Assembly: GCA_022564295.1 (NCBI GenBank)
Contig: JADFLR010000041.1
Span: 1 to 33,642, forward strand
Direction: 5' to 3'
From: Bacteroidota bacterium
Lineage (GTDB): Bacteria; Bacteroidota; Ignavibacteria; Ignavibacteriales; Ignavibacteriaceae
DNA: 33,642 nt
Within the stretch, counting starts at the first letter, position 1. Each line of letters starts with the position of its first letter. Positions 22,733-33,642 of the stretch are shown in pieces. The position numbers were made by a program, and so were the translations under genes. Below the pieces are notes generated by a model. That model made no database searches, was not told the DNA's origin, and saw nothing but the letters and a program-made list of their open reading frames with translations.

Positions 22733-23078
22733 CAAGAGACTGCTGTTGATCCTTCGTCAAGCTCAGGACAAGGTTTTTCTTTCATCTTGGTTATATATCG
22801 AAGAGGCGAATGCCATTATTGTGGACTCAAAGAGACAACCAAAACAGTGAGGGTGGGGGATGTTGGCGTGAAGGGCGTATCCATTCTACTAAATATTTTT
22901 AAAATCCATTACTTGCTGATCATTAAGTTTATTTATCTTGACTTTCAACAAAAATTATCTCAAGTTAATAGTCAAACAATATTTTCTACACCTTGGACGA
23001 GGTTGTGGAGCGGATTATAGCACTTATCAGAATACTCTTACCATAACTTAGACCCCCTGAAGTTTAGGATAAATTATA
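22733..23078. other. Intergenic region (346 bases) with cassette and repeat relics
   Basis: Begins with GCTAACAAGAG, which looks like the left half of an attC, but no right half was found; a copy of the TCCTTCG repeat (22747-22771) sits where the inner part should be. A 77-codon frame at 22787-23020 starts Cys/His-rich and then becomes I/L/F-rich with no family signal, so I do not call it. Nothing else recognised. Confidence 0.45.
22747..22771 (+). repeat. TCCTTCG-type palindromic repeat, copy 1
   Basis: 25 bases, TGATCCTTCGTCAAGCTCAG then GACAA. Its ends TCCT and AGGA are inverted. Two further copies lie at 23801 and 28850. It resembles the widely dispersed CCTTCGACAAGCTCAGG element of environmental genomes (from memory). 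Here it lies in non-coding DNA, inside a broken attC-like site. Confidence 0.7.
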
Positions 23079-23864
23079 ATGTGGAAAACTTATAAGTGGA
23101 AATTATCAAAAAATTTATCTTTACTTTTTATTGCGTGTATTTTATTCCAACTAACTGCCTTTGCACAGCAAGGGTGGATTGAACAAACTAGTGGGACAAT
23201 ATGGCCGTTAACTGCTGTCAGCTTCATCGATTCAGATAACGGCACGGCTGTGGGTTATGAAGGAACAATCCTAAGAACTACTGACGGCGGAACAACTTGG
23301 ACATCACAAACAAGCGTAACAAAAAACCATTTAGAAGGTGTCAGCTTCACCGATTCAAATAACGGTACTGTTGTAGGACAATATGGAACCATCCTAAGAA
23401 CAACTGACGGAGGTACAACCTGGACATCACAATCAAGCGGACCAACAGAACGGTTGAATGCTGTCAGCTTCATCGATTCAGATAACGGTACTGTTGTAGG
23501 ACAATATGGAACCATCCTAAGAACAACAAATGGCGGTGTTTCTTTTGTTAAAGAGGAAGAGATTGAAGAAATACCAACTGATTACACCCTAAGTCAGAAT
23601 TACCCCAATCCATTTAACCCAAGTACAAGTATACAGTATGCAGTAAGTAGTAGGCAATTTGTTAGCTTGAAGGTTTATGATTTACTCGGAAGGGAAATTG
23701 CAACAATCGTTAACGAAGAAAAACCTGCAGGTAATTATGAAGTAAGTTTCGATGCCGCAAACCTAACCAGCGGAATATATCTCTATAAAATTCAGTCTGG
23801 TGATCCTTCGTCAGGCTCAGGACAGAGCTATACTGATGTGAAGAAGATGATCCTCCTACGGTAG
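23079..23864 (+). CDS. T9SS-sorted protein with YCF48-like repeats
   Basis: 261 residues. A signal peptide (cleavage near A-F-A-Q-Q) is followed by three repeats of about 41 residues with V-S-F-x-D-S-x-N-G-T-x-V-G and G-T-I-L-R-T-T-(D/N)-G-G; two of these have the YCF48/PSII-stability form I-L-R-T-T-D-G-G-T-T-W. The last 80 residues are a T9SS sorting domain: N-Y-P-N-P-F-N-P, L-K-V-Y-D-L-L-G-R-E-I-A, P-A-G-N-Y-E-V-S-F-D-A, G-I-Y-L-Y-K-I-Q, ending K-K-M-I-L-L-R. A nine-residue D-P-S-S-G-S-G-Q-S insert near the end is encoded by a dispersed repeat. Three blades are few for a beta-propeller, so it may be a shrunken or growing array. Secreted and probably surface-bound. Confidence 0.85.
   Translation: MWKTYKWKLSKNLSLLFIACILFQLTAFAQQGWIEQTSGTIWPLTAVSFIDSDNGTAVGYEGTILRTTDGGTTWTSQTSVTKNHLEGVSFTDSNNGTVVGQYGTILRTTDGGTTWTSQSSGPTERLNAVSFIDSDNGTVVGQYGTILRTTNGGVSFVKEEEIEEIPTDYTLSQNYPNPFNPSTSIQYAVSSRQFVSLKVYDLLGREIATIVNEEKPAGNYEVSFDAANLTSGIYLYKIQSGDPSSGSGQSYTDVKKMILLR
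23801..23825 (+). repeat. TCCTTCG-type repeat, copy 2, inside a sorting domain
   Basis: Differs from copy 1 at two positions. It lies in frame in the gene ending at 23864 and encodes G-D-P-S-S-G-S-G-Q, a stretch absent from the homologous tail of the gene ending at 31731. Confidence 0.75.
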
Positions 23865-28829: not shown

Positions 28830-28913
28830 ATGACTGCAATACAGGCCGGTGATCCTTCGTCAAGCTCAGGACAGAGTTATACTGATGTGAAGAAGATGAT
28901 ATTGATGAAATAA
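28830..28913 (+). pseudogene. Relic of a T9SS sorting-domain C-terminus
   Basis: A 27-codon open stretch reads M-T-A-I-Q-A-G-D-P-S-S-S-S-G-Q-S-Y-T-D-V-K-K-M-I-L-M-K before TAA. From I-Q it matches the tail of the YCF48-repeat protein (ending 23864), including the insert encoded by the TCCTTCG repeat (28850-28874). The rest of the sorting domain and gene is gone. It shows that a third such gene once stood here, immediately before the HAF-repeat gene. Confidence 0.75.
28850..28874 (+). repeat. TCCTTCG-type repeat, copy 3, inside the sorting-domain relic
   Basis: TGATCCTTCGTCAAGCTCAG then GACAG; 24 of 25 positions match copy 1. Same frame and position within the tail as copy 2. Confidence 0.75.
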
Positions 28914-28966: not shown

Positions 28967-30166
28967 ATGCATTGTAAAAAGAATATTTCATTCGTACTTA
29001 TTTTATTCTTTACTTTTCTTCTACAAGCAGAGATGCTTGCACAAGCTACCTTCGAAGGTCTCGGTCACCTGCCGCCGGGTATGGATGTTTGGAGTTCTGC
29101 ATTTGGTGTATCGGCGGACGGTTTAGTGGTGGTAGGTTGGAGTGATGATGATGTTATTACGAAGGCTTTCCGCTGGACTGAATTGGGCGGCATGGAGGAT
29201 CTGGGTGGTCTGCCGGGCACGTTTGATGATACCGAGGCTCGTTCCACATCAACAGACGGCTCAGTTGTAGTGGGTTTCAGTAAAAGTGGACATCCTAATA
29301 TTCCGGAAGCTTTCCGCTGGACGTCGGGCGATATGGTAGGACTTGGTTTCCTGCCTGGTATTAATTCACGGAGTTATGCTTCTGATGTATCGTCAGACGG
29401 CTTAGTTGTGGTGGGTAGAGGTCAAAGTGGTAACCCCCAGGTTACCGAAGCCTTCCGCTGGACGCAATCGGGCGGCATGATAGGACTGGGTTTCCTGTCC
29501 AGTATTATTTTACAAAGTGAGGCATATGGAGTATCGTCAGACGGCTCAGTTGTAGTGGGTCGCAGTAGGACAGATAATAATTTGGATGAAGCTTTTATTT
29601 GGACAGAATCGGGCGGTATGGTAGGTCTGGGTGATCTGCCAGGTGGTGTAGGAATTAGCCGTGCTTACGATGTTACGCCTGATGGTTTAATCGTAGTAGG
29701 ATCTGCCACTGGTCCCAATGGATTAGAGCTCTTTCGATGGACCAGTGCAGGTGGTATGGAAGGATTAGGTAATCGAGGTGGTACTATAGGACCTGGACCA
29801 TATGCCGTTTCGGCAGATGGATCGGTTATAGTAGGTACACTGGATGCAAATGATAGCGTTTTTATTTATACCGATGCCGATGGAATACGAAACCTCAAGG
29901 AAGTTTTGGAAAGCGATTTTGGGCTAGACCTCAGCGATTGGACATTAGATTATGCCAGAGAAATTTCTGATGACGGTAAGGTCATAGTCGGTGTGGGAAG
30001 GCACCCTAACGGTATTAGAGAGGCCTGGCGGGTGATATTAATTGGCTCTCAAGTGTCGAATGGAACAATCCGGACGGTGGCGACTTCAGCGACTCAAAGA
30101 ACTGGGTGGGTGGCTCGGTGCCAGATGAAGACCAACTCGCAGTCTTCGATACAACAAGTGGCTTAA
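28967..30166 (+). CDS. Secreted HAF-repeat protein, N-terminal part of a frameshifted gene
   Basis: 399 residues. A signal peptide (F-V-L-I-L-F-F-T-F-L-L, cleavage after L-A-Q-A) is followed by seven HAF-type extracellular repeats, each with (S/D)-x-D-G-x-V-(V/I)-V-G and usually A-F-R-W-T-x-x-G-G-M with G-L-G-x-L-P-G. These repeats fold as small beta units and are known from secreted proteins of unknown role. The true sequence reads through R-E-A-W-R-V, after which this frame becomes meaningless (S-N-G-T-I-R-T-V-A-T-S) and stops. The other frame continues sensibly with V-E-W-N-N-P-D-G-G-D-F-S-D-S-K-N-W, so the slip lies near 30015-30060. Start ATG follows AAGAAGGATT. Treat with the next entry as one gene. 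Confidence 0.8.
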   Translation: MHCKKNISFVLILFFTFLLQAEMLAQATFEGLGHLPPGMDVWSSAFGVSADGLVVVGWSDDDVITKAFRWTELGGMEDLGGLPGTFDDTEARSTSTDGSVVVGFSKSGHPNIPEAFRWTSGDMVGLGFLPGINSRSYASDVSSDGLVVVGRGQSGNPQVTEAFRWTQSGGMIGLGFLSSIILQSEAYGVSSDGSVVVGRSRTDNNLDEAFIWTESGGMVGLGDLPGGVGISRAYDVTPDGLIVVGSATGPNGLELFRWTSAGGMEGLGNRGGTIGPGPYAVSADGSVIVGTLDANDSVFIYTDADGIRNLKEVLESDFGLDLSDWTLDYAREISDDGKVIVGVGRHPNGIREAWRVILIGSQVSNGTIRTVATSATQRTGWVARCQMKTNSQSSIQQVA

Positions 30167-31731
30167 TTTACGAGGTCACTTTCAGCAACAATGAGACAAA
30201 CTCTGCTCTATTTGTTGGTAACAACTCGGTTGCCTTCAACTTAAATTCAAATACCTATACTATAAACGCTTTTGGTGAGAACGCAATCCTGATCGGTACG
30301 CAAAGTGCGAATATCGAAGATTCGCATCTTTTCATCACTAATGGCACAGTGAAAGCAATGGGTGATGTAATTATTGCAGGTGATGATAGGCGGGGCGAGT
30401 TGACTGTAACAACCGGTGGTTTACTTGAAATTGGCGGTATGGCACATAATGTGTTACTTGTAGGAGCCTACCCCTGCAGTTTCGGTCCTTGTGGTCATTT
30501 GGAAATCCGTGCCGGAGGATTTGTGATTAGTTCTACAGAAAGCCAAATCGGTTTAATGGCATCGTCCGAAGGAAGTGTTTTGGTAACTGGCAATGGGTCA
30601 CAGTGGATTACTTTTGATACTTTATACATCGGCTATGAGGGCAGTGGGGGATTAGTGGTAGCAAACGGTGGGGATGTTTTAAGCAGTAATGCTACCATCA
30701 GCCAAAAACCAACAGGGATTGGTTCCGCGCAGGTGGAAGGTGAATTTTCAAGATGGACAATACCAGGTTTGTTAAATATGAGTAATACTGGTGGTGTTGC
30801 ATTCCTTCGTGTTCTTAGCGGCGGTACAATAGATATTGGAACATTGTCAATGGGTCTAAATGCTACGGCGGATGTAACAGGTGGTACACTAATTATTGGC
30901 GGTATTGGGCCAATAACAATCTCATCTCCTCATTCAACATCAATTGGTGAAACAACCGGCGGAGGAGAGGCTTATGTAGATTCTTTATACTTAACACAGG
31001 GAGCTACACTACTAGCAGACACAGTAATATTTGAAGAAGGTGGTTTTCTTGGTGGTGACGGCAGCTTTCCGTTTGATGTGACCAATTCCGGAGGCATCAA
31101 TCCTGGCAACACAGTTGGAAGCTCCGGTATTTTCACTGTTGATGCTAACTACACCCAGCTCACCACCGGCACATTGTTCATCGAACTGGGCGGTCTTAAT
31201 CCCGGTGAAGGGTATGACCAGCTGATTGTTACCGGCATCGCACAACTGAGCGGTACGCTGGATGTTTCTGCAATAATTAACTTTGAACCACAGGTTGGTC
31301 AGAAGTATGAAATTATTTCAGCAAATACCGTAACAGGCACATTTGATCAGATTGTTTCACACGGCGGACTTGGGTTTGATGTTACTTACAATAGTAACAA
31401 TGTTTCAATTACAATAACTTCTCCAGTTGATGTTAAGGATGAGGATTTAATTCCTACAGATTACGTGCTTTACCAGAATTATCCCAATCCATTTAATCCA
31501 ACAACGAAAATAAAATATGGAATTCCTAACAGTGGTTTAATAATACTTCAAGTTTATAATTTACTTGGAGAAGTTGTAACAACTCTTGTTAATGAGCAGC
31601 AGCCTGCCGGTAATTACGAAGTGAGTTTTGATGCCACATCCGCCGCAGGCGGATTATCCAGTGGAATATATCTATATAAAATTCAGGCTGGGGAATTTAT
31701 TGAGACTAAAAAGATGGTTTTATTAAGATAG
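30106..31731 (+). CDS. Adhesin-like repeat protein with T9SS tail, C-terminal part of the frameshifted gene
   Basis: Drawn from ATG 30106, but coding text in this frame starts by about 30050. It opens with the W-N-N-P-x-G-G-D-F-x-D-x-x-N-W-x-G-G-x-V-P-D block common to autotransporter-like passengers, then beta-solenoid repeats of the T5SS/PEP-CTERM-associated type: V-T-G-N-G-S-Q-W, L-Y-I-G-Y-E-G-S-G-G-L-V-V-A-N-G-G. Next is the passenger end G-I-N-P-G-N-T-V-G-S-S-G-I-F with Y-D-Q-L-I-V-T-G-I-A-Q-L-S-G-T-L-D-V. The last 85 residues are a T9SS sorting domain (N-Y-P-N-P-F-N-P to K-K-M-V-L-L-R). A palindrome inserts S-A-A-G-G in that tail. Without the upstream signal peptide it would not be exported. 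Confidence 0.8.
   Translation: MGGSVPDEDQLAVFDTTSGLIYEVTFSNNETNSALFVGNNSVAFNLNSNTYTINAFGENAILIGTQSANIEDSHLFITNGTVKAMGDVIIAGDDRRGELTVTTGGLLEIGGMAHNVLLVGAYPCSFGPCGHLEIRAGGFVISSTESQIGLMASSEGSVLVTGNGSQWITFDTLYIGYEGSGGLVVANGGDVLSSNATISQKPTGIGSAQVEGEFSRWTIPGLLNMSNTGGVAFLRVLSGGTIDIGTLSMGLNATADVTGGTLIIGGIGPITISSPHSTSIGETTGGGEAYVDSLYLTQGATLLADTVIFEEGGFLGGDGSFPFDVTNSGGINPGNTVGSSGIFTVDANYTQLTTGTLFIELGGLNPGEGYDQLIVTGIAQLSGTLDVSAIINFEPQVGQKYEIISANTVTGTFDQIVSHGGLGFDVTYNSNNVSITITSPVDVKDEDLIPTDYVLYQNYPNPFNPTTKIKYGIPNSGLIILQVYNLLGEVVTTLVNEQQPAGNYEVSFDATSAAGGLSSGIYLYKIQAGEFIETKKMVLLR
31639..31653. repeat. In-frame palindrome inside a sorting domain
   Basis: TCCGCC-GCA-GGCGGA, a perfect 6-bp stem with a 3-base loop, adds S-A-A-G-G between F-D-A-T and L-S-S-G-I-Y. 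The equivalent place in the protein ending at 23864 reads F-D-A-A-N-L-T-S-G-I-Y with no insert. Confidence 0.7.
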
Positions 31732-31836: not shown

Positions 31837-33642
31837 ATGCATTGTAAAAAGAATATTTCATTCACACTTATTTTTTTATTTACTTTTCTTCTGCAAGCAG
31901 GGGCGCTGGCACAAGCAAGCTTCGAAGGTCTTGGTGACTTACCGGGTGGATTTTTTGAGAGTACTGCCCTTGGAGTTTCGGCAGACGGCTTGGTGGTGGT
32001 GGGCGTGGGTAACAGTGCGAACGGAGATGAGGCATTTCGCTGGGAGAACAATGTTATGATTGGACTCGGTGACCTTACTGGTGGAGTTTTTCAGAGTCGT
32101 GCTATTGGCGTTTCAGCAGACGGATCTGTGGTGGTGGGCGCAGGTGTTAGTGAAAACGGAAATGAAGCTTTTCGATGGACAGTTTCGGGTGGAATGGTAG
32201 GTCTCGGCGACCTGCCGGGCGGAAATTTTTCAAGTTCTGCTAATGACGTTTCAGCAAATGGGTCGGTCGTGGTGGGCAAAGGTACAATTTTCGCAGAATT
32301 TGCTGTTCGTTGGATAGGCGGTATCATCGACACCTTGGGTGACCTCCCGGGTGGACAAAATAGCAGTGTAGCTTTTGCTGTTTCGGCAGACGGGTCGGTT
32401 GTTGTAGGTCTCGGATTCAGTGCGAACGGAATTGAGGCTTTTCGCTGGGTGAACGATGTGATGATCCCTCTGGGCGACCTGCCGGGTGGAACTTTCCAAA
32501 GTCGTGCTTATGGTGTTTCAGCAGACGGATCAGTCGTAGTGGGTTATAGTACAAGTGAGAACGGATCATTTGAGGCTTTTCGCTGGGAAAACAATGTGAT
32601 GATCCCCCTGGGTGACCTGCCGGGCGGACAATTTTTTAGTATTGCTAATAGCGTTTCGGCAGACGGATCGGTAGTGGTGGGCCAGGGTAACACTGCGAAC
32701 AACGGAGGAGAGGCTTTTATCTGGACAGCCTCGGACAGCATGCGATTGCTTCAGGATATCCTGGTCAGCAAGTATGGTCTGGATCTGAACGGTTGGGTTC
32801 TAAAAACTGCGAATGGCATCTCCGAAGATGGTACGGTCATCGTAGGTATCGGAACGAATCCCAATGGCTTTATTGAGGCTTGGCGGGCGGTCATTCCACG
32901 TGGATCTGGATCAATCACGGTGATCAGTCCTTTCGCTGGTGAACTTTGGATTGCAGGTGAGCAGGACACAATAAAATGGCAAAGTGAGGTTGTTGATTTC
33001 GTGGACATTTCATATAGTCTTAACGGAGGAACTGACTTTAACACTATCGTTCTTGGTTATCCGGCAGATTCTGGAAAATATGTTTGGGATATTCCCAATT
33101 CTTTGCTTTCAAGAAAATGTCTCATTCAAATTGATTATGTAGATCCTCCTTTTAAGCTCTCTGCCCAAAGCGGTTTATTCAAAATTAAAGGTTATGAGCT
33201 GACACGTATCGATGCAAATGATGATTATGAATTATTCCTCCCTCATAAAGATGGGTGGATGTTCGGTAATGCGAGAACTAATATGTGGCCAATGAGCTGG
33301 TGGAATCAATTCAACTATAATGGAGGAACCGATCCGTATACAGATGAACCATATCCACATCAATTCTCGAGTAAGATAGATAGTACTTTCCCGGATTGGC
33401 CTTTGTGGGTAAAAACATTTGGAACGGATCAATGTTACTGGTCAACTTTTTTTGGTATTTATAAAGACGTGTCAGTTGAAAAGTGGAAAAAACGGCGTCA
33501 TTGGAACGGCTCGTGCTATGGGTTTGCAGGGTCAGGTTTTCTGGGCTTTAACTATAAAGATGAATTTATAAATGGTCATCCGGGTATTCCGCAATACGAT
33601 ACTCTTTCATCTGTATTTCTATCCGCTATTTCAAGAGCAGCA
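31837..33642 (+). CDS. Secreted HAF-repeat protein with KNH-like domain and papain-like Cys motif (3' truncated by window)
   Basis: The frame is open for 602 codons from ATG 31837 to the window edge. The signal peptide is nearly identical to that of the gene at 28967. Residues about 30-345 hold seven HAF repeats (V-S-A-D-G-S-V-V-V-G, G-D-L-P-G-G, E-A-F-R-W). Residues 360-450 look like a Kre9/KNH-type surface domain: I-T-V-I-S-P-F-A-G-E-L-W, D-T-I-K-W, F-V-D-I-S-Y-S-L-N-G-G, S-G-K-Y-V-W-D-I-P. Then a W-rich part with N-G-S-C560-Y-G-F-A, reminiscent of the G-S-C-W-A-F active site of papain-like peptidases. The His/Asn partners would lie beyond the window, so the peptidase call is a guess. A T9SS tail is expected downstream. 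Confidence 0.75.
   Translation, partial: MHCKKNISFTLIFLFTFLLQAGALAQASFEGLGDLPGGFFESTALGVSADGLVVVGVGNSANGDEAFRWENNVMIGLGDLTGGVFQSRAIGVSADGSVVVGAGVSENGNEAFRWTVSGGMVGLGDLPGGNFSSSANDVSANGSVVVGKGTIFAEFAVRWIGGIIDTLGDLPGGQNSSVAFAVSADGSVVVGLGFSANGIEAFRWVNDVMIPLGDLPGGTFQSRAYGVSADGSVVVGYSTSENGSFEAFRWENNVMIPLGDLPGGQFFSIANSVSADGSVVVGQGNTANNGGEAFIWTASDSMRLLQDILVSKYGLDLNGWVLKTANGISEDGTVIVGIGTNPNGFIEAWRAVIPRGSGSITVISPFAGELWIAGEQDTIKWQSEVVDFVDISYSLNGGTDFNTIVLGYPADSGKYVWDIPNSLLSRKCLIQIDYVDPPFKLSAQSGLFKIKGYELTRIDANDDYELFLPHKDGWMFGNARTNMWPMSWWNQFNYNGGTDPYTDEPYPHQFSSKIDSTFPDWPLWVKTFGTDQCYWSTFFGIYKDVSVEKWKKRRHWNGSCYGFAGSGFLGFNYKDEFINGHPGIPQYDTLSSVFLSAISRAA

Follow-up and report, generated by a model that had tools for sequence, protein, structure and literature searches.

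Many T9SS sorting tails of Ignavibacteria share, at one site and in one reading frame, an insert of eight residues encoded by a dispersed DNA repeat; the insert is a derived state by comparison with tails that lack it, lies in a loop of the modelled tail, and shows no detectable amino-acid constraint. We lean, if only slightly, toward explaining these inserts as REP-derived sequences that are tolerated in an exposed loop of the tail, have been gained repeatedly, and are copied and lost together with the tails. The insert would then be a fragment, 24 nt long, of a palindromic REP-type repeat lodged in loop b6-b7, between the last two strands. Since this turn is probably exposed and tolerant, copies in frame could persist there as passengers; they would have been gained more than once within Ignavibacteria and would afterwards have multiplied and been lost with the tails, through gene or tail duplication and probably through recombination between tails. 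The REP origin of the first copy and the tolerance in the cell are steps that we infer. In the window, by which we mean the whole 33,642-nt stretch of DNA that was analysed, the relevant features are as follows.

22748 to 22778, + strand: third copy of the repeat, in no listed ORF, reading GAT...ACAAGGTTTT; immediate flanks tail-like, probably a fragment of an inserted tail
23079 to 23864, + strand: ORF of 261 aa with a Ycf48-like part and a C-terminal T9SS type A sorting domain holding the insert (profile search)
23595 to 23861, + strand: T9SS sorting tail with the insert in its last hairpin turn (alignment, model)
23805 to 23828, + strand: the 24-nt insert CCTTCGTCAGGCTCAGGACAGAGC (P-S-S-G-S-G-Q-S), flanked by a GAT codon on the left and, on the right, by the last strand's Y codon
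28839 to 28913, + strand: relic of a tail end that has the repeat (IQAGDPSSSSGQSYTDVKKMILMK-stop) and lacks the more upstream tail sequence (sequence reading)
31444 to 31731, + strand: second sorting tail of the window, without the insert (KIQAGEFIETKKMVLLR), used as internal comparison (profile search, model)

The three window copies start at 22748, 23802 and 28851 and have 2, 1 and 0 mismatches over 26 nt. A chance origin of the repeat was ruled out, as 100 shuffles gave 0 matches to set beside these three copies and the reversed pattern gave 0 matches in the same genome at up to two mismatches. An earlier note on this DNA had placed a 25-base repeat at 22747, 23801 and 28850; these positions stand, as do the in-frame tail insert at 23802 and the relic at 28851, which ends KKMILMK-stop, but the first copy is probably not the simple non-coding copy described there, since it has tail-like flanks and looks like tail debris. 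The nine added residues of that note (D-P-S-S-(G/S)-S-G-Q-S) come down to a net gain of 24 nt, or eight residues, just before the last strand when tails without the insert are compared.

In the ORF at 23079-23864 the Ycf48-like part scores 88.8 bits, under the cut-off of that model, and the C-terminal match to TIGR04183 scores 38.9 bits, above the membership cut-off of 23. Because of the insert, this latter match stops at model position 62 of 72, so that the sorting-domain family profile is cut short where the insert begins. Models of the two window tails, with the insert (pLDDT 78.3) and without it (pLDDT 81.6), have the same six main strands; residues 80-88 of the inserted tail form a loop within a block of pLDDT about 62, and without the insert the turn consists of two residues. 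A Foldseek search with the inserted-tail model returned weak matches to varied beta-sandwich proteins, with GbpA at rank 1 (E 1e-3) and the T9SS protein PorZ (5m11) at rank 4 (E 4e-3), which would accord, if weakly, with the Ig-like beta sandwich of type A sorting domains.

The window's own genome (4.07 Mb in 59 contigs) has 15 matches to CCTTCGNCAAGCTCAGGAC with at most two mismatches. Eight of them occupy the same position, in one frame, within T9SS sorting tails, in agreement with the earlier proposal of a dispersed repeat inserted in frame, and their consensus reads ...G(D/N/S)-PSxxSGQ(S/G)-(F/Y)...(K/R/Q)K(M/L)...; seven are in frames with a whole sorting domain and one (L014) is in a 121-codon frame without the domain start. 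Three more copies are tail-end relics that begin near the repeat (L002, L009 and the window copy at 28854), three are elsewhere (L012, L013 and L015, with longest open frames of 73, 47 and 43 codons), and one is the window copy at 22751 (22748 over 26 nt), with its tail-like flanks. The genome has 150 scored TIGR04183 matches out of 217 candidates; 69 tails, a part of these 150, were examined and 8 have the repeat.

The copy at 22751 is outside every listed ORF of at least 80 aa and is spanned by a stop-to-stop frame of 95 codons. Its flanks are like those of tail inserts over 15 nt on the left (p=0.004) and 8 nt on the right (p<0.0001), the likeness being gone over 35 nt on the right (p=0.24); among the other non-tail copies scored in this way, L012 was weakly tail-like to the left and to the right (p=0.01 for either side), L069 to the left alone (p=0.007), and the rest not at all. 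Given this resemblance, the copy is probably debris of an inserted tail. As the own-genome copies of this form, the GGAC form, are mostly in tails or tail debris, it is no evidence of independent non-coding mobility.

That the insert is a derived state follows, at the level of sequence comparison, from close paralogues (88-94% identical) and orthologues (77-83%) without it. The neighboring tails at L204 are 90% identical over their shared part and differ by an additional 24 nt between GAT/GAC and TTT, the inserted tail having 3 mismatches to the repeat and no domain start in that frame. One tail pair (L094), 94% identical, is a net 24 nt apart, insert against empty, and so are the L001 and L160 tails, at 88% identity. 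Two congeners have orthologues without the insert, one of the L003 gene (L174, 77% identical) and the other of the L006 gene (L188, 83% identical over the body). Tails with and without the insert exist side by side in the own genome and the relatives compared, and the likeness to the protein-coding palindromic elements of Rickettsia holds, as here too there is in-frame insertion in conserved proteins with empty sites in relatives. The contrary thought, that the insert might be an ancestral part of the domain, is only half borne out: it does occur across the class, but it is missing from most own-genome tails, and the site is empty in close paralogues and orthologues.

Nor is the insert a one-off, since the repeat is found in many Ignavibacteria tails. 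We collected 222 distinct tails from the own genome and relatives, calling the repeat at up to four substitutions; it is present in 89, with CCT a codon in all 89 and F or Y next in 87. Some of these tails had been fetched because of the repeat and some with a set distance to K-K-M, so that 89/222 is no frequency and the common frame is partly built in. As the tail finder requires a match to the domain core, tails with a large core insert were possibly missed, and since the search patterns limited mismatches, old copies were missed. When the tails were aligned to an 81-column model and inserts of at least four residues were counted, part of which is native length variation, 114 entries fell in loop b6-b7 (columns 68-70), 51 in loop b5-b6 (columns 53-56), 39 at column 22 and 2 at column 18 in loop b2-b3, and 3 at columns 65 and 72. 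The DILGEE loop had no insert of whatever length in the 222 tails. DILGEE is equated with loop b3-b4, and the other loops are named, by a by-eye alignment to the RgpB motif FDMNGRR quoted in PMC11285876; according to that paper, T9SS function in P. gingivalis requires both loop b3-b4 and the C-terminus, and the insert-free DILGEE loop would on this alignment correspond to the essential loop. Native loop variation was considered as the source of the inserts and rejected: the turn does vary natively (24-residue ends, for example ATGVDGTNF), but the PSxxSGQ inserts are one DNA sequence.

The repeat itself is present, at up to one mismatch, in 49 of 196 genomes of relatives, in a patchy manner. 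Two counts are free of the bias of fetching, one in the family of the own genome (f1), where the search was made without regard to context, and the other a species-wide scan. Family f1 has 80 copies in 23 genomes at up to one mismatch. In a count that combined these 80 rows with rows of a tail-linked pattern read as tails, a pattern that also matches non-tails, 45 of 47 GGAC-form copies were in tails or tail relics at this site (43 by coordinate, L331 and L332 by reading), the two outside tails being one copy in G025 and that at window position 22751. None of the 31 GGAT-form copies matched the tail-linked pattern, and one of the two copies ending in GGGC was in a tail. The species-wide scan covered 84,980 species genomes, from which records of the own genome are possibly absent, for the repeat followed by K-K-(M/L) after 12-24 nt. 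It returned 37 stretches, 26 of them with sorting tails (one of two L078 matches being degenerate), in records named Ignavibacteria, Ignavibacteriae, Ignavibacteriales, Ignavibacteriaceae, Ignavibacterium, Melioribacter, or 'Bacteroidetes bacterium' B74T1L10, and the distance from the repeat to K-K-(M/L) is 17 nt in all matches of these 26. The other 11 stretches, from Proteobacteria, candidate phyla and others, have no tails. The whole-genome searches covered inserts in the one orientation, by their DNA sequence.

The two forms of the repeat differ in structure. The GGAT form mostly reads GTCATCCTTCGACAAGCTCAGGATGAC or near it and makes a hairpin with 8-bp arms; this relative (GTCAT...ATGAC) folds at -5.3 kcal/mol (z -3.2). 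The coding form has lost the outer arms of the palindrome and has no hairpin fold, so that the word palindromic, used earlier for the window copies, does not suit them: the 26-nt copy folds at only -0.8 kcal/mol (z 0.56). In the frame of the tail, GGATGA would create a stop codon. Among 16 f1 GGAT copies that were read, 7 of them viewed only in stretches of 248-401 nt, 13 are in no open frame of more than 84 codons and three (L059, L067 and L335) are in longer frames. One of these (L335, G057:C42:439800-440150) has the GGAT form in frame (ILRQAQDD) within an open frame that is no shorter than 111 codons and looks glycosyltransferase-like by eye, and another (L059, in G023) has it inside a 381-codon open frame (ILRQAQDDILREAPRSGRQ), a putative gene. 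Unlike a REP, which is mostly intergenic and of high copy number, the GGAC form is predominantly tail-linked in f1 and has only the 15 own-genome copies.

A mobilizing enzyme was looked for among Y1 transposases. The own genome has four matches to PF01797, one with stops, and at these four loci of 2.7-3.3 kb the repeat is absent at up to three mismatches over 16 nt. Y1 genes L142-L145 (G000) sit among palindromes of their own, for example CCACGACCTTTAGGTCGTGG and CACCTAACTGAAGTTAGGTG, which are other families by eye. We therefore rejected the own-genome Y1 transposase as mobilizer, the adjoining palindromes being other families and the repeat missing from the loci; the arrangement of REP/RAYT systems, a cognate Y1 gene flanked by the same repeat, was not found in this genome. 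Y1-family matches occur in 172 of the 196 relatives and the repeat in far fewer, and for that reason the presence of a Y1 gene says little. In G166 a transposase between two inverted copies was also considered and rejected, since the two large ORFs there are glycosyltransferase-like and response-regulator-like by eye. Movement may be by RAYT-type transposition, by recombination between tails, or by both.

Trees of 194 tails (83 inserted) were made with the loops left out; the other 28 of the 222 had under 60 core columns or lacked the C-terminal K motif. At about 70 residues per tail these trees are weak, and with gains and losses pooled they need 38 insert changes on the protein tree and 36 on the DNA tree; collapsing branches with support under 0.8, 0.9 and 0.95 lowers the number to 27, 13 and 7. 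With shuffled labels 55-70 changes are needed, against the 36 observed on the tail tree, so the insert is also inherited along tails, and recurrence and spread with the tails both seem to act in this comparison. The clustering means that inheritance or spread within tails explains much, and since the observed changes fall below the shuffled range we give some weight to a single origin, a possible though clearly less probable account in which one ancient REP insertion in one tail was followed only by duplication, gene conversion, horizontal transfer and frequent loss, the repeat itself being immobile. One site, orientation and frame fits such an origin; moreover, the GGCTGG variant is in tails only (in G163 and G104, 10 of 10 rows within one mismatch are tails, 8 with that core), own-genome tail ends are alike at the DNA level (one 72-nt tail end has 40 matches, of which 15, counting its own place, reach 83-100% identity across 67 nt or more), and inserted neighbors are sometimes sisters, as in L232/L233 and L242/L243. 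A single origin is harder to reconcile with inserted tails whose nearest tail is uninserted (for example L204, L001, L003 and L094), with the at least 7-13 changes on well-supported branches, with a second palindrome in the same turn (L327, L160), and with tandem units of different cores in G036. Our preferred explanation, of repeated gain and tolerance, has difficulties as well: the Y1 genes of the own genome adjoin other palindromes and not the repeat, and random insertion with tolerance would not by itself lead to a single position, orientation and frame.

Selection for the insert, a Ser/Gly-rich loop that alters cargo sorting, anchoring or processing, seems improbable to us. Recurrence at one exact turn, beside the C-terminal motif required for T9SS function in P. 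gingivalis (PMC11285876), and the use of one hydrophilic frame would suit it, but synonymous change is not in excess: the fixed insert columns have 22 synonymous and 31 non-synonymous differences, with an expected synonymous share of 1/3 (p=0.24), so that amino-acid constraint in the insert was not detected and, of the two outcomes first envisaged, the insert appears to be tolerated. The 8 inserted tails among 69 examined in the own genome also argue against selection, as does RgpB, where according to the same paper eleven residues in place of three in loop b5-b6 left export unaffected. Most improbable of all, in our judgment, is a transposase with the turn's DNA as its target (T before, TTT after), inserting there again and again. 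T is the last base of the preceding codon in 82 of 89 inserted tails compared with 44 of 77 uninserted ones (p=1e-7), and the spacing to K-K-(M/L) is constant in the 26 scan stretches; the preceding T may reflect target preference or may be part of the element, the GGAT form mostly reading CATCC. Against such an enzyme, none of the own-genome Y1 loci links a transposase to the repeat, and in L067 and L234 both the loop and the frame that hold a related repeat are different.

Palindromic inserts in frame are known; what appears new, by the open-licence literature searched, is their accumulation in one secretion domain. Palindromic elements in frame in Rickettsia genes and REPs inside ORFs have been described in PMC3733652. 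The Rickettsia elements resemble the insert in being short, palindrome-derived and in frame inside many protein genes with likely functional products; they differ in that here there is one host domain family, a fixed turn and loss of the outer arms, and the likeness is one of description. The GTAG/CGTC REPs in the same paper are similarly 20-40 nt long, dispersed and stem-loop forming, with some intragenic copies. Unlike the single tail turn, these intragenic copies are described with stress on DNA synthesis and repair genes and at otherwise differing sites, although recB of two Xanthomonas has a REP insertion at about one site; the main text of PMC3733652 contains no mention of Ignavibacteria or T9SS. 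PMC2759123 presents enterobacterial repeat units RU-1 to RU-3 as small mobile repeats fused in frame to genes, but these are 103-168 bp long and in various genes, compared with an eight-residue loop of one domain here. PARCEL repeats (PMC2996958) are coding, have dyad symmetry and occur partly in membrane-targeted proteins, yet they are tandem amphipathic repeats of 25 residues and not single short loops in a sorting domain. The b5-b6 hairpin of PorU and PorZ (PMC11285876) likewise lengthens a loop of a T9SS sorting domain, and the added residues were tolerated in an export test; it is a different loop and was not reported as repeat DNA. A REP-like palindrome has been described in Caldithrix according to PMC5317091, whose main text had no match for T9SS. 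In the open-licence literature searched, the exact repeat string was absent and no report of palindromic or REP inserts in T9SS cargo was found; of six encoded peptide strings only RQAQG (most matches) and PELVEG were matched, in works that appear unrelated from their titles and the beginnings of their abstracts.

These tails are a collection of many natural insertions in a secretion signal, and the 222 of them point to loops that accept extra residues and loops that do not, no mutagenesis being needed. They also suggest that junk-like repeats can enter proteins in bulk by way of a domain with at least 150 copies per genome.

Other palindromes are found in the same domain. Loop b2-b3 has CCCTCTCCTTACCAAGGAGAGGG (SPYQGEG) in L047, L083 and L182, and the own-genome tail L014 has in this loop a stretch sharing 15-mers with it, which makes four genomes in all; the same loop has TTTCCCCTCTCGAGAGGGGAA in L073 and L262 and CCCTTCTCCAAAGGAGAAGGG in L250. 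In the L067 tail loop b2-b3 is longer by about 34 residues (RQAQDD...SLSKSD) through two GGAT-type repeats in inverted arrangement. The last turn, b6-b7, has a different palindrome, CCCCGCAAACGGCGGGG, in L327 and a shorter form of it in L160 of the own genome, and G036 has two tandem units with different cores. A more speculative reading, which we hold to be rather unlikely, is that a coding mini-repeat descended from a REP has made the sorting tails its habitat, has largely lost its non-coding life and spreads from tail to tail at the fixed turn by tail-specific recombination or target-specific transposition, with several other palindrome families independently colonizing permissive loops.

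Several further loci deserve mention. The 30 matches in G176 were considered as tails and rejected; most of these loci have a composite repeat unit, none reads as a tail, and the longest open frames over the matches run from 44 to 549 codons. A Staskawiczbacteria contig (L095, 3103-3500 and 5852-6300) has the same repeat in frame, as PSASSGRG and PSTGSGQ, in genes that by eye read like the alpha and beta subunits of ATP synthase. A tail-end relic without the repeat (L328, G000:C24:32114) reads SFVETKKMILMK-stop, with no upstream tail in the preceding 120 nt read. At L165 (G000:C10:158800-162300) three adjacent genes have similar tails ending TGNN(I/F)QTIKMSLLK and not in the usual KKM form. 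Finally, at 28967-30166, 30106-31731 and 31837-33642 of the window a T5SS/PEP-CTERM-repeat protein that has a sorting tail stands between two HAF-repeat proteins; the overlap of the first two of these ORFs, 61 nt long and in different frames, may be owing to a frameshift or a split gene.
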